Below are positions 3,029-36,776 of a stretch of 64,000 nucleotides of DNA, piece after piece. Location of the stretch: the NCBI GenBank assembly GCA_007693385.1, contig REDR01000045.1, forward strand, positions 1-64,000, read 5' to 3'. Positions within the stretch are counted from its first letter, which is position 1. Each line of letters starts with the position of its first letter. The notes beneath the pieces were generated by a model. It had not been told where the DNA came from. It made no database searches and was given only the letters and a program-made list of their open reading frames with translations. The position numbers were made by a program, and so were the translations under genes. Origin of the DNA: Anaerolineaceae bacterium. GTDB lineage: Bacteria; Chloroflexota; Anaerolineae; Aggregatilineales; Phototrophicaceae.

Positions 3029-3065
3029 CGCTTTTTAACGTCAATCAAACCGTGAGGAGGACGTG

Positions 3066-4007
3066 ATGGACTGGTCGCAGACCGCATTTATTTTTCCCGG
3101 ACAAGGCTCGCAGAAGGTCGGCATGGGCGCTGATTTCTACGCGACATCGCCCGCCGCTAAAGCGATATTTGACGAAGCCGACGACGTGCTAGAAACCGGC
3201 TTCAGCGCGTTGATCTTTGAAGGTCCGGCGGCGGAACTGGACGACACATACAACACACAGGCGGCGCTGTATGTGTGCGGCGTGGCGGGGTTGGCCGCGC
3301 TACAGGAAGCCATCCCGACGGCGCGGGCGATCTGTCTGGCCGGTCACAGTCTGGGCGAATTCACCGCATTGACCGCTAGCGGGGCGCTATCCTTCGCGGA
3401 TGGTTTGCGGCTGGTGCGTGAGCGTGGCCGCTTGATGCGCGAAGCCGGTCAGCGCAACGCGGGGGCGATGGCCGCCTTGCTGGGGGCGTCGCTGGATGTC
3501 GCGCATGAAATCTGCACGGCGGCCACCTTACAGACTTCTGCGCCGGTCGTCATCGCTAACGACAATTGCCCGGGACAGGTGGTGATTAGCGGCGCGATAC
3601 CCGCCGTAGACCGCGCCATCGCGCTGGCCGCGCAGAAGGGAGTCTCGCGGGCGGTCAAGCTGGCGGTCAGCGTCGCCGCCCATTCGCCTTTGATGGCTTC
3701 CTCTGCCGATGCTTTCCGCGAAACGCTGGCGCAAACGCCGATTAATCCGCCGCAGATTCCGGTCTATGGCAACGTCAGCGCCGCGCCGTTGGCCGATGTG
3801 GACGCCATCCGCGCCGAGCTAGACCGGCAGTTGACCGAGCCGGTACGCTGGACGCCGAGCGTGCAGGCGATGATACGCGATGGCGCGGTGAACTTCGTGG
3901 AGATTGGTGCGGGGAATGTGCTGGCCGGTCTGGTCAAGCGCATTGAACGCAAGGCGGGGCGCTATGTGGTGGAGGATATGGCGGGTGTCTCCGCGCTGGC
4001 CGGATGA
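3066..4007 (+). CDS. fabD: Malonyl-CoA:ACP S-malonyltransferase
   Basis: A 313-residue protein of usual FabD length that moves the malonyl group from CoA to acyl carrier protein to feed fatty acid chain elongation. The N-terminus has FPGQGSQKVGMG, typical of acyltransferases. The catalytic serine is in GHSLGE at residue 95, and the active-site His lies in the AAHSPLM motif near residue 200. Start: AGGAGG lies 5 nt before the ATG at 3066; a GTG one codon upstream is too close to it. The pairing with rpmF is conserved in many bacteria, but plsX and fabH are missing between them here. Confidence 0.95.
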   Translation: MDWSQTAFIFPGQGSQKVGMGADFYATSPAAKAIFDEADDVLETGFSALIFEGPAAELDDTYNTQAALYVCGVAGLAALQEAIPTARAICLAGHSLGEFTALTASGALSFADGLRLVRERGRLMREAGQRNAGAMAALLGASLDVAHEICTAATLQTSAPVVIANDNCPGQVVISGAIPAVDRAIALAAQKGVSRAVKLAVSVAAHSPLMASSADAFRETLAQTPINPPQIPVYGNVSAAPLADVDAIRAELDRQLTEPVRWTPSVQAMIRDGAVNFVEIGAGNVLAGLVKRIERKAGRYVVEDMAGVSALAG

Positions 4008-4125: not shown

Positions 4126-4941
4126 ATGTCCGCACAAGCATCCGCACCTGATGCGCCGGTTGATGCGCCGGATAGCGTCTTTGAAGGCTTAAAGCGCTTT
4201 AACCTCATCATGGGCGTGTTCCATCTGGTACAGGGCATCGCTATGATCGTCCTGAGTACCGATTTCACGTTCACCGTCACGACGCTGTATCTTCGCGCTG
4301 TACAGCCGGAAGAAGGTCAGCTATTTCTGGAGCAAAATCTACAGGACGCCTTCGACGTGCCGTTCGGCCCGGCGGTGGCGTTGTTCCTGCTGATTTCCGC
4401 CGTCGCGCATTTCCTCATCGCCACAGTCGGCTATGACCGCTACGTTAAGGGACTCAAGAACAACATCAATCAAGCGCGGTGGTACGAGTATGCGCTCAGT
4501 TCGTCGTTGATGATCGTGCTGATCGGGATGCTGGTCGGCATCTATGACCTGTCCACGTTGATTCTGCTGTTCGGCCTGAACGCGATGATGAACCTGTTCG
4601 GCCTGATGATGGAACTGCACAACCAGACCACCAAGAAAACCGACTGGACGGCGTACATTTACGGCTGTATCGCCGGTCTCATCCCGTGGATCGTGATTAT
4701 CCTGTATCTGGTTGGCGCGGCGCAGTCCGTCGATACCGAAGTCCCGGGCTTCGTGTACGCGATCATCGCCTCGATTTTCGTGTTCTTCAACATCTTCGCG
4801 CTGAATATGTTCTTGCAATATAAGCGCATCGGCCCGTGGAAGGAATATCTGTTCGGGGAGCGTTCGTACATTGTGCTTTCGCTGGTGGCGAAGTCGGCGC
4901 TGGCGTGGCAAATCTGGTTCGGCCAGCTACAGCCCGCCTAG
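4126..4941 (+). CDS. Heliorhodopsin
   Basis: A 271-residue protein with seven hydrophobic helices. The last helix has YIVLSLVAKSALAWQI, the heliorhodopsin signature, with the retinal Schiff-base Lys at 256. Helix C has RWYEYALSSSLMIVL, placing the counterion at Glu121. His33 (GVFHLVQ) and His95 (VAHFLIA) match the two histidines known in the family. Other conserved stretches are GCIAGLIPWI and GERSYIVL. Heliorhodopsins bind all-trans retinal, sit inverted in the membrane (N-terminus cytoplasmic) and have slow photocycles; their role is mostly unsettled. The AAAGGA site is well placed before ATG. The gene stands alone between fabD and psuG; no carotenoid or retinal synthesis gene is in the window. 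Confidence 0.96.
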   Translation: MSAQASAPDAPVDAPDSVFEGLKRFNLIMGVFHLVQGIAMIVLSTDFTFTVTTLYLRAVQPEEGQLFLEQNLQDAFDVPFGPAVALFLLISAVAHFLIATVGYDRYVKGLKNNINQARWYEYALSSSLMIVLIGMLVGIYDLSTLILLFGLNAMMNLFGLMMELHNQTTKKTDWTAYIYGCIAGLIPWIVIILYLVGAAQSVDTEVPGFVYAIIASIFVFFNIFALNMFLQYKRIGPWKEYLFGERSYIVLSLVAKSALAWQIWFGQLQPA

Positions 4942-5071
4942 AACGCGGCGCGTTGCGTCAATAATCGAAATAAACATCAGATGCGCGGGGACGGCCTGAC
5001 GGTTGTCGCCGCGCTGTGTTATCATCTGGCATGATCGAATCAATCGGACGAACGAAAGTATAGAGACACTC

Positions 5072-5977
5072 ATGCAATTGCATTATGCCGAAGAAGTGCG
5101 CGACGCGCTGGCCGAAGGCCGTCCGGTGGTCGCGCTGGAATCGACTGTTATCTCACACGGTTTGCCGTTCCCGCACAATGCGGAAATCGCCGCCAACATG
5201 CAATCCGCCATCCGTGCGGAAGGCGCGGTGCCGGCCACGATCGCGGTATTGGGCGGTAAAATTCACGTCGGGTTATCCGACGAGCAAATCCATCATCTAG
5301 CAACCGCGCCCGACATCCGCAAATGTAGCCGCCGCGATTTCAGCATCGCTGTCGGCCTCAAGCAGGACGCGGCGACCACCGTCGCCGGTACGATGATCGT
5401 CGCGCATCAAGCGGGGATTCGCGTGTTTGCGACCGGCGGCATCGGCGGCGTGCATCGCGGCCACCCGTTCGACGTATCCGCCGACCTGATCGAGCTAGGG
5501 CGCACGCCGGTCGCGGTGGTCTGTGCGGGCGCGAAGTCCATCCTCGATCTACCGCTAACGCTGGAAGTGCTGGAAACGCAGGGCGTGCCGGTGCTGGCTT
5601 ACGGCGCGGACACGTTCCCGTCGTTTTATACCCGCGAGAGCGGGCTGGCGGTTGATGAGCGCATCGACACGCCACAACAGGCGGCGGACATCATCCACGC
5701 CAGCTTATCGCTAGGGTTGGGGCATGGCGTGTTGATCGCGGTGCCCGTCGCGCCGGAATACGAGATGCACGCGGCGCAGGCCGAAGAAGCCATCCAGCAG
5801 GCAGTAGCCGAAGCTGACGCGCAGGGCATACACGGCAAAGACGTGACGCCGTTCATCCTGTCGCGCATGGGCGAATTAACCGATGGGCAGGCACGAGCGA
5901 CCAACACCGCGCTATTGCAGAATAACGCCCGCATCGGCGGGCAGATCGCCGTCGCGTTAAGCGCCCGCGACGCTTGA
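5072..5977 (+). CDS. psuG: Pseudouridine-5'-phosphate glycosidase
   Basis: A 301-residue protein that reversibly cleaves pseudouridine 5'-phosphate to uracil and ribose 5-phosphate. It has the family motifs VALESTVISHGLPFPHN near the N-terminus, KCSRRDF, and VFATGGIGGVHRG; the Lys in the middle of the protein is expected to carry the covalent sugar adduct. Start: MQLHYAEEV at 5072 begins at the usual family N-terminus; the 23 residues upstream look non-family. It ends next to a PfkB kinase (see there), the arrangement in which a pseudouridine kinase supplies its substrate. Confidence 0.95.
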   Translation: MQLHYAEEVRDALAEGRPVVALESTVISHGLPFPHNAEIAANMQSAIRAEGAVPATIAVLGGKIHVGLSDEQIHHLATAPDIRKCSRRDFSIAVGLKQDAATTVAGTMIVAHQAGIRVFATGGIGGVHRGHPFDVSADLIELGRTPVAVVCAGAKSILDLPLTLEVLETQGVPVLAYGADTFPSFYTRESGLAVDERIDTPQQAADIIHASLSLGLGHGVLIAVPVAPEYEMHAAQAEEAIQQAVAEADAQGIHGKDVTPFILSRMGELTDGQARATNTALLQNNARIGGQIAVALSARDA

Positions 5978-5985
5978 TTCAACCG

Positions 5986-6891
5986 ATGGACGCGATACGC
6001 ATCGTTGGCACGGGCGCGGTTTTTATTGACGACATCGTTCTGCCGGATGGTCAAACCCACATGGGCACGCTGGGCGGCGGGACGGTTCACGCTTTGCTGG
6101 GTGCGGCGCTGTGGGACGAGCGTCCGGGGTTATCGGCGTTTGTCGGCGCGGATTTGCCGCCGGATGTGCGCCCGTTTCTGGCTCAACATCTGAATCTGGA
6201 TGGCCTGATCGCGTTGCCGACGCCGCAGGCGCGAGCGTGGCAGATATTCGAGCATGACGGCACGCGCCGCGAATTGCACCGCGTCGAATCGGCGCATATG
6301 ACGCCGTTCATCAGTGGCACGAACCCCGACCATCTACCGGCGCATTATCGGCGGGCGGATGGCTATTTCCTGCTACTCGGCTTTGATGATCCGGCTGTGT
6401 GGGGCGATCTGCCCGGCCTCAAGCTGTGGGAGCCGAATCAATTGGCGATGCTATCCGGCGGGCGCGATGACGTGTGCCGCGTCCTGTCGATCCTGTCGCC
6501 GGATGTGGTATCGCCCAACCTCAGCGAAGCTCGCATGATCTACGGCGAACGCTCGCCGCATGAATTGCTGGATTGTCTGCTGGCGGACGGGGCGCGGGCG
6601 GTGGCGTTACGCATGGGGCGGGATGGTTCGCTGGTGGTGGCGTGTGGCGGGACGCCGGTGCATGTGCCCGCGTTTCATGTGGAAGCCGTCCGCGATGAGA
6701 CCGGCGCGGGCAATACATACAACGGCGCATTTCTGGCCGGGATGGTGGCCGGACGCCCCCTCACGGAATGCGCGGTGATGGGCACGGTGGCCGCCTCTTT
6801 TTGTGTGGAGCAGGTCGGCGTGATTGATCCGGCACAGATCAGCCACGCCGAACGCTCTGCGCGTTATCGTCGGCTTATGCTTTCGCTTTGA
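5986..6891 (+). CDS. PfkB-family carbohydrate kinase, possible pseudouridine kinase
   Basis: A 301-residue PfkB kinase (ATP plus sugar or nucleoside to phosphate ester and ADP). The N-terminus MDAIRIVGTGAVFIDDIV and the C-terminal DETGAGNTYNG motif are visible. The usual GAGD catalytic Asp is Asn here (N243), a variant that also occurs in some PfkB branches. It starts 8 bp after psuG (ATG 5986), or overlaps it from a TTG at 5974. The neighbour suggests a psuK role, but the substitution makes that uncertain. Its end overlaps the convergent M20 gene by 17 bp. Confidence 0.82.
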   Translation: MDAIRIVGTGAVFIDDIVLPDGQTHMGTLGGGTVHALLGAALWDERPGLSAFVGADLPPDVRPFLAQHLNLDGLIALPTPQARAWQIFEHDGTRRELHRVESAHMTPFISGTNPDHLPAHYRRADGYFLLLGFDDPAVWGDLPGLKLWEPNQLAMLSGGRDDVCRVLSILSPDVVSPNLSEARMIYGERSPHELLDCLLADGARAVALRMGRDGSLVVACGGTPVHVPAFHVEAVRDETGAGNTYNGAFLAGMVAGRPLTECAVMGTVAASFCVEQVGVIDPAQISHAERSARYRRLMLSL

Positions 6892-28497: not shown

Positions 28498-29439
28498 TTA
28501 GAAACGCTCGAACGCGCCGGACTCCATCACGGCGAGGATCGCCGGGCCTAGCAAAACGATGAAGATCGACGGGAAGATCAAGAACACCATCGGGATCAAC
28601 ATTTTGACCGGCGCCTGTTGCGCTTTTTCCTGTGCGCGTTGGCGACGCTTGACGCGCATCTGCTCCGACTGAATACGTAACACCTGCGACATACCGACGC
28701 CGAGTTGGTCGGCTTGCACGATGGCGGCGACGAACGTCGTCACGTCGGGAACGTCCATGCGCTCCGCCATGTCGCGCAGGGCATCGCGCCGTAACTTGCC
28801 GAGCTGAATCTCACGCAGGACACGCCCGAAAGCTAGCGCTAACTCGTTGTCCCACTTCTCGTACACTTTGCCCATCGCCATATCGAAGCCCAGACCGGCC
28901 TCCACGCAGATCACCAGCAAGTCGAGCGCGTCCGGCAAAGCCCGCAGGATGCTCTCTTGCCGCCTCTGAATCTTGGTATTTAACTGCGACATCGGCATGT
29001 AGTAACCCATCGCCGCGCCACCGACGAAGAACATCACGGAGGTCTGGAACGTCTCTTCGAGTATCTGCACCGCGATGAGACCGCCACCAACGGCGAAGAC
29101 CACAGTCAGCACGATGCGCTGAATGAAGAACTGCGACGGGTCGGTTGTCATACCGGCTAATTCTATCTTCTGCCGCACCGTCTCTAACTGCTTCTGCGGC
29201 GTTAGCCGGATGACGACCCCCGCCACGCCCCTGAGGAACGGCTCGATCACGCGCTCTTTCATGCCGATAGACATTTCGACTTCTTCTAGCGAAGTCGGCA
29301 ATTCGCGGTCACCGTATTGCTCGAGGATGTCGGCTAGCGGGTCTTTTTCGCTGTCCTGACGCAGGCCGATATAGACCATCAGCCCCAGCGCCACCACAAC
29401 GATGATTAAAAAGATGAGTATATTTACGGGAATCGGCAT
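28498..29439 (-). CDS. tadC: Tad pilus inner-membrane platform protein TadC
   Basis: A 313-residue T2SSF-family protein. There is an N-terminal helix (INILIFLIIVVVALGLMVYI type, residues 3-22), a second near 110, the F domain near 165-290 with ALPDALDLLVICVEAGLGFDMAM, and a last helix near 290-308. It forms the inner-membrane platform of the Tad/Flp pilus machine with TadB. It is the last gene of a five-gene run, 12 bp after tadB. The usual pilin, prepilin peptidase and secretin are not in the window. Confidence 0.9.
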   Translation of the reverse strand: MPIPVNILIFLIIVVVALGLMVYIGLRQDSEKDPLADILEQYGDRELPTSLEEVEMSIGMKERVIEPFLRGVAGVVIRLTPQKQLETVRQKIELAGMTTDPSQFFIQRIVLTVVFAVGGGLIAVQILEETFQTSVMFFVGGAAMGYYMPMSQLNTKIQRRQESILRALPDALDLLVICVEAGLGFDMAMGKVYEKWDNELALAFGRVLREIQLGKLRRDALRDMAERMDVPDVTTFVAAIVQADQLGVGMSQVLRIQSEQMRVKRRQRAQEKAQQAPVKMLIPMVFLIFPSIFIVLLGPAILAVMESGAFERF

Positions 29440-29451
29440 CGGGTTATCGTC

Positions 29452-30432
29452 CTATATGTCAATGTCAACGATCTTTTGCACTACTGCCGCGCCAATGCCA
29501 ATCATCGCCAGACCGACGCCGAGCAACGGCCAGCCACACGCCCGATTATCAAATAGCGGGTTGATGAAGCCGGGGCTAACGACCTGCAAGAACAGCGCCA
29601 GCACGATAGGCAAGAAGCTAATCAGATAGCCGGTGATGCGCCCCTGCGCGGTCAGCACGCGGATTTCACCTTTTAGCTTGATGCGCTCGCGGATGGTGTG
29701 GCCGATGACCGCCAGAATCTCCGCCAGATTACCGCCGACTTCGCGGTTGATGTTCACGGCGGTGATGACCAGATCGAGGTCTTCGCTCTCCACGCGATCA
29801 AGCATGTGCTGTAGCGCGTCGCCCATGTCGATGCCGAGCTGTACTTCCTGCACCACGCGATGAAATTCGGTCTTGGTCGGCTCGCTGGAGTCGCGGGCGA
29901 TGGCTTCCATTGATTGCAGGGCGCTATAGCCGGAGCGTAGCGCGTTCGTCCACAGGCTGAGCGTGTCCGGCAATTGCGTTTCAAATTCACGCAGGCGCGA
30001 GCTAATCTTGCGCGAAACGTAAATACGCGGGAACAGAAAGCCGACGAAGCCGCCGATGATCGAGAAAACAATATCGCCACTGAAAAGCACGAAGTACCCG
30101 ACGGCGAAAACGCCCAGCGTGCTGATGATATGCAACGCGGCGAACTCTCCAATAGTCAGCTTGAGGTTGGCGCGTGCGAGTTGAATACGCCATTTCTGGC
30201 CGAATTTGCGATTTGCGAAGAAGCTGTCTAGCGCTTCAATCGCCCGCCCTTCGCCCTTATCTACCGCTTGATCGTCTTCGTCGCCGTATGTCTGGAAGCT
30301 GTCGTTCGTCGCTTCTTCAAGGCGACGCTCAACAAAGTCTTCATCAGAGCGTGCGGTGAAGATGCCGATGGCGACGATCACCATAGACAACAGACCCGCC
30401 CCGCCTAGAATTAGTAATTGCTCCGTACTCAT
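29452..30432 (-). CDS. tadB: Tad pilus inner-membrane platform protein TadB
   Basis: A 326-residue T2SSF protein with an N-terminal helix (LLILGGAGLLSMVIVAIGIF), a central pair of membrane helices near 110-150, the F domain around 160-290 with LPDTLSLWTNALRSGYSAL and the C-terminal helices. It works as the platform with TadC. It begins 119 bp after cpaF. Its closest relatives in the family lack a pilin-like part, as here. Confidence 0.9.
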   Translation of the reverse strand: MSTEQLLILGGAGLLSMVIVAIGIFTARSDEDFVERRLEEATNDSFQTYGDEDDQAVDKGEGRAIEALDSFFANRKFGQKWRIQLARANLKLTIGEFAALHIISTLGVFAVGYFVLFSGDIVFSIIGGFVGFLFPRIYVSRKISSRLREFETQLPDTLSLWTNALRSGYSALQSMEAIARDSSEPTKTEFHRVVQEVQLGIDMGDALQHMLDRVESEDLDLVITAVNINREVGGNLAEILAVIGHTIRERIKLKGEIRVLTAQGRITGYLISFLPIVLALFLQVVSPGFINPLFDNRACGWPLLGVGLAMIGIGAAVVQKIVDIDI

Positions 30433-30551
30433 GGCTCTATCCCGCTATACTCGAACAAGTCCGTCTACGCTTGATTGTAGTCGGCGGCGGTTTGTGGCGT
30501 CAACGCATCTGACAGGATACAAACCGCCTTATAACCGGCGTGTGCGCGGCA

Positions 30552-31967
30552 TTAACGCCGCTTGCCCAGCCCGAAGGTGGACGGCGGCAGGTGAATACCG
30601 GCGTCTTCGATCTGCTCGATGAATTTTGGCCGGATGCCCGTCGGTTTGATGCTACCGACGATCTTGCCCGCTTCATAGCTGGTCTGCTGGAACTCGAAGA
30701 TGTCCGACATGGTAATCATCTCGCCTTCCATGCCTTGCACTTCGGTGATGTAGAGAATCTTGCGTGAGCCGTCGCGTAGGCGCGACTGCTGGCAGATGAC
30801 ATCAACGGCGGAGGCGATCTGCTCGCGGATGGCGCGGGTGGGTAGTTCCATACCGGCCATCAAGCACATGACTTCCAGACGCGAAATCGCGTCGCGGGGG
30901 GCGTTGGCGTGCAAGGTGGTCAGCGATCCATCGTGGCCGGTGTTCATCGCCTGAAGCATGTCCAGCGCTTCGCCGCCACGACACTCACCGACGATGATGC
31001 GCTCCGGACGCATACGCAGACAGTTAATCACGAGGTCTTGAATGCTGATCGCGCCTTTGCCTTCGATGTTGGAGGGGCGGCTTTCCAGCGTGACCACATG
31101 ATCCTGCTGAAGCTGTAGCTCCGCCGCGTTCTCGACGGTGATGATGCGCTCGTCGTTGGGGATGAAGCTGGATAGCACGTTGAGCAGGGTGGTCTTGCCG
31201 GAACCGGTACCGCCGGAGACGACCATATTCAGGCGGGCGATGACGCAAGCCCGCAGGAAGTCGGCGATCTGGCCGGTCATCGAGCCGAACTTAATCAGGT
31301 CATTGACCGTTAGCGGATCAACCTCAAATTTACGAATGGTGATGGTTGGCCCGTTGAGCGCGATGGGGCGGATGACGATATTCACACGCGAGCCGTCTGG
31401 CAGGCGGGCATCCACTAGCGGCGAGCTTTCGTCCACGCGACGACCAAGCGGCGCGACGATGCGATCAATGATGCGGAGGACGTGCGTATCATTATCAAAC
31501 GTCAGGTTGACGCGGGATAGCAAGCCTTTGCGCTCTACATAGATCATCTTGGGGCCGTTGACCATGATTTCCGACACCGCCTCATCGCGCAAGAGCGGGT
31601 CAATCGGCCCGAAGCCGATGATGTCCGACACGATAGAGTCGAACAGGCGCTTCTTTTCCTGTCGGGAGATCATCACGCCTTCTTCGGCCAGAATCGAATG
31701 AAAAAGTTCTTCGATGTGGCGGCGGATTTCGTCTTTCGACTGCGTTTCGATGTCCTGATTGATCTCACCTAGCAGGCGATTTTGCACCCGTGTCTTGAGG
31801 TCGGCATAGCTGGCTTGAGTCGTCTTGCCAGCCGGTGCGCCGCCGGTATCGCCCACGGTGCGGTTGGTGCGTCCACCGCCGGACGGTGGCGGGCTTTTAT
31901 CGCCGCCTTTACCTTTGCCGCCTGACGGGTCTTTGTCGCCTTTTTCGATGCGCTTTAGCAGAGACAT
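30552..31967 (-). CDS. cpaF: Tad pilus assembly ATPase CpaF (TadA)
   Basis: A 471-residue GspE/CpaF-type ATPase. The N-terminal 60 residues are a Gly-, Pro- and Ser-rich linker. The ATPase core has Walker A SGGTGSGKTTLLN at about 251-263, the Asp box ITVENAAELQLQ, and the Walker B region MRPERIIVGECRGGEA. KH-like and linker parts precede it. It powers pilin insertion and retraction from the cytoplasmic face. It starts 29 bp after cpaE and is followed by tadB. Confidence 0.95.
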   Translation of the reverse strand: MSLLKRIEKGDKDPSGGKGKGGDKSPPPSGGGRTNRTVGDTGGAPAGKTTQASYADLKTRVQNRLLGEINQDIETQSKDEIRRHIEELFHSILAEEGVMISRQEKKRLFDSIVSDIIGFGPIDPLLRDEAVSEIMVNGPKMIYVERKGLLSRVNLTFDNDTHVLRIIDRIVAPLGRRVDESSPLVDARLPDGSRVNIVIRPIALNGPTITIRKFEVDPLTVNDLIKFGSMTGQIADFLRACVIARLNMVVSGGTGSGKTTLLNVLSSFIPNDERIITVENAAELQLQQDHVVTLESRPSNIEGKGAISIQDLVINCLRMRPERIIVGECRGGEALDMLQAMNTGHDGSLTTLHANAPRDAISRLEVMCLMAGMELPTRAIREQIASAVDVICQQSRLRDGSRKILYITEVQGMEGEMITMSDIFEFQQTSYEAGKIVGSIKPTGIRPKFIEQIEDAGIHLPPSTFGLGKRR

Positions 31968-31996
31968 AACGATAAATTCTCCTCAATCAATCACTT

Positions 31997-33358
31997 CTAG
32001 CGGCCAAATAGCGCGGTCAGCAGACCGCCTTTTTTCTGCTTGGTCTGCTTTTCGGCCTTCTGCTGGGCGATGGCCTCCGCTTCTTCTTCGTCAATTTCCA
32101 TCAACTCATTATACAGGCGGGTTGCCAGTTCGTAGAATTGACGGGCGGGCGGGCGATCCGGATTACGCTCCGCCGCGATGAGCGGCACGCCCTTATTGAC
32201 TGCGCTCAAATACGTGCGGTCATCCACCGCCGGTATCTGCGCCAGAACTTTCACCTTCAGATACCCCTCGACGCGCTCGACGGGCACAGTAGGGATTCTC
32301 TTGCGGCGGTCTTCAACCACTTTGCTCAATACGATGCCGGTCTTGCCCTGTTCATAATCCAGCTTGTCGAAGATGTCCAGCACCAGCCGCATATTCTTGA
32401 CGCTGACCAGCGTCGGCGTGCCGACCAGCAGAATCCGCGATGCTTGATCGAATATGCCCAGTTGCATCTCGTCCAGCCGCGTTGAGGTATCGACGATGAC
32501 GAAATCGTACAGGTTACGCACCTGCTCGATGATGCGCCCCATCGTGTCGGGGCGGGCGACCACCGGATCGGCGGCTTCGGGGCGGGGCGGGCCGAGCAAT
32601 ACTTTCAGCCCGCTATCGTGTGTGGTGACGATGTTCTCGAACAATTCCAGATCAATGTCGTCAACGTCCTGCGCGACTTCCACCACGCTCGATTGCGACT
32701 TCAGATTGAGGAACGTGCCCACGTCCGAGAATTGCAAGCTCGCGTCGATCAGCAACACGCGCACGTCCTCACGCATCAGCGCGGAGGCGAGGCTGGTGGC
32801 GATGGTGGTCTTGCCGGTGCCGCCCTGCGGACTGTAAACCGCGATGACGTGTCCGGCACGATCCCCGACTGTTTCGCCCGGCTCGCCGACGTTGCGGATT
32901 TTCTCCATAACGCCCTGTTCCATAGCGGCGTATTGGCGGCGCACCTGCTCGTGATTGCGGTAAACGGCGCGGATGGTGTTGTACAGGTCGTCCATTGAGG
33001 CTGACTTGCCCAGAAAATCCCGCGCACCGGCGCGGAGCGCCTGCCGCATGTAGTCGGGGTCATTCTGCACCGACATGATAATCACGGCGGCGGTGGGCAC
33101 TTGCTTGGTGATGATGTTGGTGGCCTGCAAGCCGTCCATGTCGGGCATGTTGATGTCCATGATGATGACATCCGGTTGCAGTTCTTTCGCCATCTGCACG
33201 CCTTGACGACCTGTTTCGGCGTTGCCGACGACTTTCAGATCAGCCTCAAATGCCAGTAGCTTGCCGATGTTTTCGCGTACTTCACGGATGTCATCGACCA
33301 ATAAAATGGTGATGACATCCTCCTGTTGATCCTGTGTTGGCTTGCGTCCACCACTCAT
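31997..33358 (-). CDS. cpaE: CpaE-like protein: receiver domain fused to MinD/ParA-type ATPase
   Basis: A 453-residue protein. Residues 15-125 are a receiver with all key residues: Asp22/Asp23, phospho-site Asp68 (IIMDINMP), Ser96, Lys118 (FLGKSAS). Residues 168-410 are a MinD/ParA ATPase with SPQGGTGKTTIA as deviant Walker A and IDASLQFSDVGTFL. CpaE-type proteins position Tad pili at the cell pole; the receiver suggests phosphorylation control. It lies between cpaB and cpaF. The C-terminal tail is charged and Lys-rich. Confidence 0.92.
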   Translation of the reverse strand: MSGGRKPTQDQQEDVITILLVDDIREVRENIGKLLAFEADLKVVGNAETGRQGVQMAKELQPDVIIMDINMPDMDGLQATNIITKQVPTAAVIIMSVQNDPDYMRQALRAGARDFLGKSASMDDLYNTIRAVYRNHEQVRRQYAAMEQGVMEKIRNVGEPGETVGDRAGHVIAVYSPQGGTGKTTIATSLASALMREDVRVLLIDASLQFSDVGTFLNLKSQSSVVEVAQDVDDIDLELFENIVTTHDSGLKVLLGPPRPEAADPVVARPDTMGRIIEQVRNLYDFVIVDTSTRLDEMQLGIFDQASRILLVGTPTLVSVKNMRLVLDIFDKLDYEQGKTGIVLSKVVEDRRKRIPTVPVERVEGYLKVKVLAQIPAVDDRTYLSAVNKGVPLIAAERNPDRPPARQFYELATRLYNELMEIDEEEAEAIAQQKAEKQTKQKKGGLLTALFGR

Positions 33359-33424
33359 GATAAGTCCCTATCTCTGCATACCTAAGATGTTGCCCTGCCC
33401 GCCGGTTAATGCGCCTGTCGTCGA

Positions 33425-34672
33425 TTAATCACCACTGCCCAATGTGATGCGCTGGCCGGCGATCAATTCGCGGATACTGCGGATTGCCGGTTCAATCGCG
33501 TAGTCGTTACGGCGCGGCACGGTGATGTCGTATTCGGCGATGATGTAGTCGATGGTCACCGGATCGCTGGGCTGGCGCGAACGATCCGCCGCCCCGCGTA
33601 GCGCGAATGTGATCGGCACACGCGCCTCAAGTAGCCATGTGACGATGGCCGCTTCTTGTGGCGTCACCGCGAGCGTTACGATGTCGGGGCGCGGCGGTTG
33701 CGGTGTCGGGAATTCAGCCGCCTGTTGTTGTTGCTGTTGCTGTTGCGCGTCTGCTGGCACGACTGGCGTCGGTGATGCTACTTCTTCAAACAGGCGGCCA
33801 TCCGTCGGGAAGTCGCCCACCCAGACCACCTGCGCGTCGAGGATGGTGCGATGCGTCAGCAAGCGCGGGCGCGGGGCTTCTGATGGCAGGATAGCGACGG
33901 GATAATCCAGCAGAGAGGTCGAGACGCGCACGCTCCCCGCGCCTAGCTCCAGAAACGGAATCGGCACGCGGCGGGTATCAAAGCGACCACTGATGTTATC
34001 ACCCAGCGTCAGATTCAGGCTACTGGCCTGCTCGCTATCCCCGCCAAACGCGGCGGAAATCAAGCTGACCTGATTGGGTAGGGCGCTCTGGAATTCTTCA
34101 TCGAGATCAACGAACAATAGCGAAACGATGATGTCCACGCTGTCGCCCTGTTGCAAGGCATAGGCGACGCTGGTCAGGCGATCCATCGGCAAGGAGATAG
34201 CGACGGTGCCCGGCGGCAAGATAGCGGCGGCGTCCGAACCAACCGCCGACAATTGATCGAGCGAATCGACCAGATACGACGACAAGACCGGCTGTTCACT
34301 GAGGATGTCCACGCGGGCGATGCGTCCGGCGATGTCGTCAATGTCGGTGATGTGGCTAAACGGCAGGGCGTCAAACGGCCATGGCCGCAACTCGACGGCT
34401 TCCGGCGGGATGGTCGCACCGCGTGAGATATTCTGCACGGCTACCGCGATCAGGCGTAATTCCTGCGTGGGGATGGCTGTCGCCGCCGGATCAGTCGGCA
34501 CGGCGGTTTCTGCCGGTTCTTCTTCGTCTTCCTGTACCAATTCTACCGCCGGTGACGGCTCTTCTTCGTCGTCGCTGTCACCCGTGCCGATCAACAAGAC
34601 CAGACCGACGGCGGCGACGATGATGACGAAAGCCACCAACAGCAAAAGGCGTGTACGTGTACGGTTGTCCAT
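33425..34672 (-). CDS. cpaB: Flp pilus assembly protein CpaB/RcpC, SAF domain
   Basis: A 415-residue protein: a helix near 8-29 (LLLLVAFVIIVAAVGLVLLIG), an acidic stretch, then a SAF-type domain with AVAVQNISRGATIPPEAVELR, and a repeated CpaB domain with GDSVDIIVSLLFV. A long glutamine run of eight Gln lies near residue 305 before PTPQPPRPDIV. CpaB/RcpC stabilises the pilus outside the membrane. It is the first gene of the cluster; 250 bp upstream have no clear promoter. Confidence 0.86.
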   Translation of the reverse strand: MDNRTRTRLLLLVAFVIIVAAVGLVLLIGTGDSDDEEEPSPAVELVQEDEEEPAETAVPTDPAATAIPTQELRLIAVAVQNISRGATIPPEAVELRPWPFDALPFSHITDIDDIAGRIARVDILSEQPVLSSYLVDSLDQLSAVGSDAAAILPPGTVAISLPMDRLTSVAYALQQGDSVDIIVSLLFVDLDEEFQSALPNQVSLISAAFGGDSEQASSLNLTLGDNISGRFDTRRVPIPFLELGAGSVRVSTSLLDYPVAILPSEAPRPRLLTHRTILDAQVVWVGDFPTDGRLFEEVASPTPVVPADAQQQQQQQQAAEFPTPQPPRPDIVTLAVTPQEAAIVTWLLEARVPITFALRGAADRSRQPSDPVTIDYIIAEYDITVPRRNDYAIEPAIRSIRELIAGQRITLGSGD

Positions 34673-34921
34673 TCAATCCCTCCGAATGTTTTTAGATAAC
34701 CCACGCCATCCCCCCGATGGTTCTGGTCGTGCGTCGATTCCGCGTCAATGCGCCGCATCATCGGGCGCACAAAATCCCTCAACACTGCATTTATTGTATA
34801 GCAAGTGAAAGTGTCGATCAGTTAAGACTGGCCGCGCCAACATCTGCTGATGCCTCTATTGTAGCGTCACGCGCATTTTACGGCAACGTCTGGCATGAAA
34901 CCCGAATGCACTGCGCCGCCG

Positions 34922-35992
34922 CTAACTGACCGGAAGCTCTAGCCGCACTTTCGTTCCTTCGCCTTCGTCACTGCTGATGCTGAAATTGCCTTTGACCAGT
35001 TCAAACTTCTCTTTCAGCGTCAAAAAGCCCTGAGCGCGGGCATCCTGATGATCGTCGCGTGACATCAAATCCTCAACGTCAATCGCCCGTCCGTTGTCTG
35101 ATACCTGAATCAGAACCGGATTATCCTGAAAATCTATGCGAACCTTAATCTGCTGACTGTTGGCGTAATCACGCGCATAGCCGACTAAATCCTGCACAGC
35201 GCGGAAGATCATCACCTCTTTATGTTGTTCTTTCAGCCGTCGTTCTTCGCCCAGTATGGTCAGGTCGATGTTGATCGCGTTCTTCTCGCGCACGGAATCC
35301 ACCCAGCGCTTGATCGTCGGCACGACGCCGAGATCGTCGAGCATCATCGGGCGCAGGTCGAAGATGAAGTCGCGCACCTTCTGGAATGTGACGCTGGCCG
35401 CCTCTTTGAGGTTGCCGAGTTCCTCTCCGGCGCGTTCCGGGTTGCGGTCAAATAAGCGCTGGCAGATTTCCGCCTGCAAGATGAAGTTCGTCAGCGATTG
35501 TGCCGGGCCGTCGTGCATCTGCCGCGCAAGGCGCTGGCGTTCTTCTTCCTGCGCCTGCACAATGCGTACAATATTAATCGTGCCGCGCTCCGGCTCGTCG
35601 TCCTCTTCGATCTCGAAGCTGTGGACGCCCTGCACCTTGCTCATGATGTCCGATAGGAGCGCTTGCTCCGCCTGTAGTTGCTCGTATTGCGCTTCAAACT
35701 TCTCGTACTGGCCGCGCATCGTCGCCAGCCGGAAGCGCACATCAAGCGCCTCTTTGTACTTGTCGCGGATTTCATCACGGGGGCGGCTCTCTAACGTCGC
35801 CTCGATGGTCTGGATTTCAAAGGCGATGTCGGAATAGCGATCCTGTTCGCGCTCCACGACCTGCTGTGTCTGGCTGATCTGGTTTTTGAGTTCGGCCAAC
35901 TGACTTTTAATCTCGCCCATGCGCTTGGTGACGCGCTCGATGATAGCCTGACGCGGATCATCGAATAGTGTATCGTGTGCTAAATCGGCCAT
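34922..35992 (-). CDS. DegS/NarX-type sensor kinase with degenerate ATP site
   Basis: A 356-residue soluble kinase without membrane helices. Residues 20-120 form a coiled coil (KRMGEIKSQLAELKNQISQ type). The H-box is RLARQMHDGPAQSL with His160. The ATPase region lacks the N-box Asn: FRAVQDLVGYARDYA where the family has EALxN (Gly271), and the G1 box reads SDNGRAID rather than DNGxG. So it may bind ATP poorly. It follows the LuxR regulator by 7 bp and precedes the Tad genes on the same strand. Confidence 0.85.
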   Translation of the reverse strand: MADLAHDTLFDDPRQAIIERVTKRMGEIKSQLAELKNQISQTQQVVEREQDRYSDIAFEIQTIEATLESRPRDEIRDKYKEALDVRFRLATMRGQYEKFEAQYEQLQAEQALLSDIMSKVQGVHSFEIEEDDEPERGTINIVRIVQAQEEERQRLARQMHDGPAQSLTNFILQAEICQRLFDRNPERAGEELGNLKEAASVTFQKVRDFIFDLRPMMLDDLGVVPTIKRWVDSVREKNAINIDLTILGEERRLKEQHKEVMIFRAVQDLVGYARDYANSQQIKVRIDFQDNPVLIQVSDNGRAIDVEDLMSRDDHQDARAQGFLTLKEKFELVKGNFSISSDEGEGTKVRLELPVS

Positions 35993-35999
35993 CTGCTTT

Positions 36000-36776
36000 T
36001 TAATCCTCTTCTCTCATATCGGTCTGCGTCGCCTCGTCGGTCACACGTTCATCGCCTGTTGTGGGGTTATCGTCGTGCAGGCGCACCCAGCCATGCCGGA
36101 TAGCGGTCACAGCCGCCTGTGTGCGGTCACGCACGTTCATCTTATGCAAGATAGATGTCATGTGATTCTTCACCGTTTGTCGGCTGATGCCAAGTGCCAG
36201 ACTCATCTCTTTGTTGCTCATGCCGTGAATAACCGCGTACAATACTTCGGTTTCGCGTGGGCTTAACGGCGTGAAGCATCGCGCGGTCATGTCGTCGTCG
36301 TATGTGCCGATCAGCGCCTCGATCCGCGCTTCGACCCATTCCTGCTTCATCTGCTCATTCATCGCCTGCCCGTTAATCACGTAGCATCCGCCCGCCACCG
36401 CGCGGATCGTGCCGGTTAGCGCATCCGCGCTGATGTCTTTGGAGCAATAAGTTTTTGCGCCAGCCTGTAGCGCGTACAGCACATGCTCTTCTTCGTGGTA
36501 GCCGGTCAGGATGATAACATCGGTATTCGGCGCGACGACTTTCAGCGCTTGCGTCACCCGTAGGCCGTTGATGTCCGGCAGGTTCATGTCCACGATAGCG
36601 ACATCCGGCTGTACTCTGCTGACCAGCTTGACGCCGCTATGACCGTTCCCCGCATAGCCGACAATGCGGATGTCCGGCTCTAGGCTCAGGGTTTTCGCTA
36701 GCCCTTCTCTGAAAATTGGATGATCTTCGATGACGGCTACCGTAATTTGTTCAACAATAGGATTCGTCTGATTCAT
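36000..36776 (-). CDS. NarL/LuxR-type response regulator
   Basis: A 258-residue regulator. The receiver has Glu17/Asp18, phospho-Asp63 (IVDMNLPD), Thr in ILTGYH and Lys in YCSKDI. The LuxR helix-turn-helix at about 190-235 has LSPRETEVLYAVIHGMSNKEM and ISRQTVKNHMTSILHKM. A 20-residue acidic tail follows. It pairs with the kinase downstream and may control the Tad genes that follow; the target is inferred from position only. Confidence 0.93.
   Translation of the reverse strand: MNQTNPIVEQITVAVIEDHPIFREGLAKTLSLEPDIRIVGYAGNGHSGVKLVSRVQPDVAIVDMNLPDINGLRVTQALKVVAPNTDVIILTGYHEEEHVLYALQAGAKTYCSKDISADALTGTIRAVAGGCYVINGQAMNEQMKQEWVEARIEALIGTYDDDMTARCFTPLSPRETEVLYAVIHGMSNKEMSLALGISRQTVKNHMTSILHKMNVRDRTQAAVTAIRHGWVRLHDDNPTTGDERVTDEATQTDMREED

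Follow-up and report, generated by a model that had tools for sequence, protein, structure and literature searches.

What might a heliorhodopsin (HeR) do when its gene stands between the housekeeping genes fabD and psuG, and where would its retinal come from? These questions are raised by the window, a stretch of 64,000 nucleotides (positions 1 to 64,000 of contig REDR01000045.1, assembly GCA_007693385.1) from an Anaerolineaceae bacterium whose genome comprises 3.59 Mb in 137 contigs and is 96.9% complete. The relevant features are listed below in window coordinates, with residue equivalences taken from the alignment.

3063..4007, + strand: fabD-like acyltransferase (PF00698), upstream neighbour of HeR, not a conserved partner
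4126..4941, + strand: HeR gene, 271 aa, with seven transmembrane helices and a long extracellular A-B beta hairpin
4222..4224, + strand: His33 codon (His23 of 48C12)
4408..4410, + strand: His95 codon (His80 of 48C12)
4486..4488, + strand: Glu121 codon, Schiff-base counterion (Glu107 of 48C12)
4891..4893, + strand: Lys256 codon, retinal-binding lysine (Lys241 of 48C12)
about 5072..5977, + strand: psuG, pseudouridine-5'-phosphate glycosidase family (PF04227), downstream neighbour of HeR
5974..6891, + strand: PfkB-type kinase (psuK-like), conserved neighbour of psuG

The Gene Encodes a Member of the Heliorhodopsin Family

The original prediction placed a heliorhodopsin at 4126–4941, and the open reading frame lies exactly there. 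Its product matches Pfam PF18761 over the entire profile (1–242 of 242) with 345 bits (cut-off 26.7 bits, E-value 2.4e-103), and the NCBIfam HeR equivalog NF038020 with 359.6 bits (cut-off 100). The only solved structures matched by the sequence are heliorhodopsins, with E-values of 1.6e-79 for TaHeR and 8e-66 for 48C12. Likewise, Lys256, Glu121, His33, and His95 had been numbered correctly as the key residues, since they align 1:1 with K241, E107, H23, and H80 of 48C12. We aligned 61 heliorhodopsins, drawn from Chloroflexota, from other bacteria, and from archaea; all of them share E121 and K256, and H33 and H95 are at least 90% conserved.

We used this alignment to build an AlphaFold2 model, which has seven long helices, a mean pLDDT of 90.7, and a pTM of 0.88. 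The A-B loop forms a beta hairpin (strands 48–59 and 67–79), K256 lies within helix G (241–267), and E121 within helix C (116–136). Structure prediction and alignment with 48C12, which had been proposed as checks, thus both returned the expected picture of a heliorhodopsin fold with its Lys and Glu in these helices. All ten PDB matches of the model with E <0.001 are heliorhodopsins, the best being TaHeR (6is6; TM 0.88 for the query and 0.95 for the target, rmsd 1.7), and type-1 rhodopsins rank after them, at E about 1e-3. The predicted loops B-C, D-E, and F-G contain 4, 2, and 4 Lys/Arg residues, while A-B, C-D, and E-F contain 1, 0, and 0, a predicted distribution that would fit the inverted N-in/C-out topology.

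TaHeR, from the Thermoplasmatales archaeon SG8-52-1 (PDB 6is6, 7u55, and 7clj), is 56% identical to the window HeR over 244 residues and shares with it the fold, the retinal Lys, the Glu counterion, and the His residues. The window HeR differs by a longer N-terminus and A-B loop and by its host, which is bacterial and has carotenoid genes as well as another rhodopsin. 48C12 (PDB 6su3, 6su4, and 6uh3), which is of actinobacterial origin, is 50% identical, with all functional residues aligned. Much closer are the HeRs of two sister genomes of the same taxonomic family, Bin_70_1 and maxbin.031 (loci L020 and L021; genomes G013 and G032), with 77% and 74% identity, respectively. Codon positions 1, 2, and 3 of the gene differ from these two sisters at 20–24%, 12–13%, and 54–58%; third positions thus differ 2.3–2.9 times as much as first and 4–5 times as much as second positions, as would be expected for a gene under purifying selection. 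By sequence comparison, we consider it confirmed that this is an intact and genuine heliorhodopsin, one more member of a family that was already known from Chloroflexota.

The Genome Carries a Second Rhodopsin and Carotenoid Genes

The original prediction also stated that the vicinity is free of carotenoid and retinal genes. This is true of the adjacent genes but not of the genome, for which all our statements rest on family searches, and which holds two loci of interest.

G000:C109:34957–35697 (L100:9892–10773): NDQ-type, KR2-like type-1 rhodopsin (family search)
L101:9214–17353 (contig C101 of G000): carotenoid/photolyase island (profile searches)

The best PDB matches of the C109 rhodopsin are 8jh0 and entries of the sodium pumping rhodopsin KR2. 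It is identical to KR2-type entries at the N, D, Q, and K of the motifs YRYLNWLIDVPMLLLQ and ADVASK, and we regard it as a putative light-driven sodium pump. Downstream lie the genes of two large sensor histidine kinases, of which one has HisKA_7TM/PAS/GAF domains. Both sister genomes have a type-1 rhodopsin as well, but with the motif RYIDWLLTVPLL in place of NDQ, which we take to be of the proton-pump type. On the same contig C109, we observed a recA gene interrupted by a Hint/intein domain (PF01079 and PF14890; L100:2870–4417).

The C101 island consists, in order, of a DUF6992 protein, a fused lycopene-cyclase-type protein (matched twice by TIGR03462), phytoene synthase, SDR, an AhpC/TSA-type protein, alpha/beta hydrolase, photolyase, and a CrtI/CrtD-type desaturase. 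DUF6992, which adjoins the lycopene cyclase here, is also found near HeR in two other loci (L026 and L059). In L026, which is from another genome, distant homologues of the island's DUF6992, SDR, hydrolase, and photolyase surround the HeR gene. This locus suggests, if only weakly, that HeR is connected with light-stress islands like C101.

Known Retinal-Forming Enzymes Are Rare in HeR-Bearing Anaerolineae

A genome-wide search for blh and crt genes, also proposed with the original prediction, gave a mixed result: genes for phytoene synthase, a desaturase, and a lycopene-cyclase-type protein are present on C101, while blh was not found. Profile searches of this 96.9% complete genome detected neither Blh/Brp (PF15461) nor an RPE65-type oxygenase (PF03055), and no retinal oxygenase was seen beside HeR or beside the C109 rhodopsin. 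Since no known retinal-forming enzyme was detected, the chromophore supply of HeR is only putative. Each sister has a match to the RPE65 family, a full-length one in G013 and a partial one in G032, so the oxygenase may have been lost or left unassembled in the window genome. Among 396 Anaerolineae genomes, Blh scores over the cut-off in 1 and RPE65 in 13. Only 3 of the 47 HeR-positive genomes (G346, G400, and G443) have either enzyme and 44 have neither. A type-1 rhodopsin passes the cut-off in 16 genomes, and 7 of these have one or the other enzyme.

Because carotenoid genes up to the lycopene-cyclase type coexist with two opsins while the known oxygenases were not found, as in 44 of the 47, we tentatively entertain the possibility, well short of an even chance, that Anaerolineae bearing HeR and type-1 rhodopsins form retinal through an enzyme whose family has yet to be described. 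Such a gap has been met in other organisms too. CL500-11 belongs to the Chloroflexota. This aquatic group has already been listed as rhodopsin-bearing without blh (PMC7734400).

The same absence of Blh/Brp and RPE65 matches, here and in the 44 sampled genomes, could also mean that the window HeR has no chromophore and is an apo-protein with a light-independent role, or a remnant. We consider this unlikely. The retinal-pocket residues are invariant across the 61 relatives (at least 90% for the two His), the protein is 74–77% conserved despite heavy synonymous change, and the genome keeps two different opsins. Moreover, Aurantimicrobium minutum lacks the known retinal genes yet makes retinal, and Rhodoluna lacicola responds to, and uses, added retinal (PMC7734400).

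A chromophore-bearing HeR might instead be a light-driven ion transporter, as reported for the viral V2HeR3, for which proton transport has been described (PMC9448325). Such activity is less likely for the window HeR, and we give it a low probability: its closest matches are the prokaryotic TaHeR and 48C12, studied prokaryotic HeRs have been described as having no ion-pumping activity (PMC8612252), and the genome has a separate rhodopsin of the pump type.

HeR Is Patchily Distributed but Probably Belongs to This Lineage

In a phylogenetic tree, the window HeR forms one clade (support 100/100) with L020 and L021, which come from two MAGs labelled Anaerolineae, of the same family as the window genome but of two other genera. 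HeR was found in 3 of 98 genomes of the family and in 47 of the 396 Anaerolineae genomes sampled. A pattern this scattered suggests that the gene was lost repeatedly, or transferred within the group. The presence of HeR in merely 3 of 98 genomes might be taken to mean that the gene is foreign, either misbinned or recently acquired. This is very improbable, and misbinning in particular is unlikely, given the fully supported clade with HeRs from two other genera of the family, the third-codon GC of HeR (0.77), which matches that of fabD (0.75) and psuG (0.76), and the other genes that flank HeR on either side on a 98-kb contig. Across the class, a type-1 rhodopsin accompanies HeR in 5 of 47 genomes, as against 11 of 349 genomes without HeR (Fisher p 0.03, uncorrected for relatedness), a co-occurrence that is suggestive only.

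Neighbouring Genes Are Not Conserved Partners of HeR

The order fabD–HeR–psuG given in the original prediction is correct and continues with the PfkB kinase, all on one strand, with gaps of 118 bp (fabD/HeR) and about 130 bp (HeR/psuG). The accompanying idea that these genomic partners are informative fared less well. In 29 psuG loci of relatives, neither fabD nor HeR was found beside psuG (0/29; available flank, up to 1.5 kb), which rules out a conserved partnership and indicates that the two housekeeping genes are not partners of HeR. It is hardly credible, despite the shared strand and the short gaps, that HeR forms a functional unit with fabD and psuG for light control of fatty-acid synthesis or pseudouridine breakdown, because in these 29 relatives psuG has neither fabD nor HeR upstream and recurs beside the PfkB kinase (in about half of the loci), and because the sisters carry HeR at another place. 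A promoter and terminator scan around HeR was uninformative, with one promoter-like site (4996–5025) as compared to 0.7 expected.

Two other regions of the window were noted. A 637-aa protein with a membrane N-terminus, a sensor-like soluble part, and no Pfam match is encoded about 2 kb from HeR (91–2004, − strand), and a gene run at 28498–36776 (− strand) looks like a pilus/secretion cluster of the Tad type that includes response regulators.

Comparison with related genomes yielded a different neighbourhood. In both sisters, the genes divergent to HeR encode a GAF-HisKA_3-HATPase histidine kinase and, with it, a LuxR-type response regulator, and the genes that follow this pair read as stress-protein-like. 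Orthologues of the sisters' kinase, defined by 66% identity or more (true orthologues show 66–76%), were found in 7 of the family's 98 genomes, 5 without HeR and 2 with it. The window genome has no orthologue, its best match being 37% identical. We therefore rejected this kinase as an obligate partner of HeR, since only 2 of the 7 genomes that bear it have HeR and the window genome has HeR without it.

In one genome (G051, locus L143), the kinase/regulator pair adjoins a homologue of the gene that in L021 lies beyond HeR, and for this reason we read the site as empty of HeR. L143 and L021 would then represent the empty and the occupied site of a HeR gain or loss.

More broadly, within about 6 kb of 80 HeR loci, photolyases are found in 5 and alpha/beta hydrolases in 5. 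There appears to be no universal HeR partner, because in a tally of 138 open reading frames flanking 40 Chloroflexota HeRs no Pfam family occurs more than 5 times. These data agree with published surveys, in which the surroundings of HeRs are enriched in two-component and redox genes and in some cases include light-repair and carotenoid genes (PMC8612252), and in which ten groups of HeR neighbours include photolyase, SDR, and alpha/beta hydrolase (PMC11109279).

HeR Probably Acts in trans as a Light Sensor or Regulator

The conserved residues, the predicted structure, and the comparison of genomes argue for the window HeR being a functional family member, probably a light sensor or regulator that acts in trans on light- or oxidative-stress functions, with retinal that is either endogenous or scavenged. 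By analogy with the family, retinal on K256 would absorb visible light and then isomerise, and a proton would shift inside the pocket near E121. The slow photocycle would move the cytoplasmic loops and so, instead of pumping ions, control a partner in the cytoplasm or the membrane. Since even the closest relatives differ in their HeR neighbours, we place this partner elsewhere in the genome, where it may be a sensor kinase or belong to the photolyase, carotenoid, or antioxidant stress functions. What speaks against this reading is that the window genome shows no partner gene linked to HeR, no orthologue of the sisters' kinase, and no known retinal-forming enzyme. Retinal would come from the organism's own carotenoid pathway, via an unrecognised or unassembled cleavage enzyme, or be taken up from neighbours, and this supply would feed the sodium-pump-like rhodopsin of C109 too.

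Other HeRs offer precedents for direct regulation of this kind: HeRs have been described as binding and regulating an ABC transporter (PMC11109279), glutamine synthetase (PMC9529153), and CPD photolyase (PMC9769723). The role first proposed for the gene, light sensing or a light-linked enzyme role, survives best in its sensory and regulatory half; the enzyme half has precedents in glutamine synthetase and photolyase, but nothing found here links the window HeR to any particular enzyme.

Because HeR neighbours differ completely between the window genome and its sisters, immediate neighbours alone are a poor guide to HeR function. This genome offers a test case in which HeR, a sodium-pump-type rhodopsin, carotenoid genes, and a photolyase occur together, yet no known retinal synthase was found. 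Specialists may care most about the lack of known retinal synthases across the class, a gap that this genome exemplifies rather than closes and that bears on the question of how rhodopsin-bearing bacteria without blh obtain their retinal.
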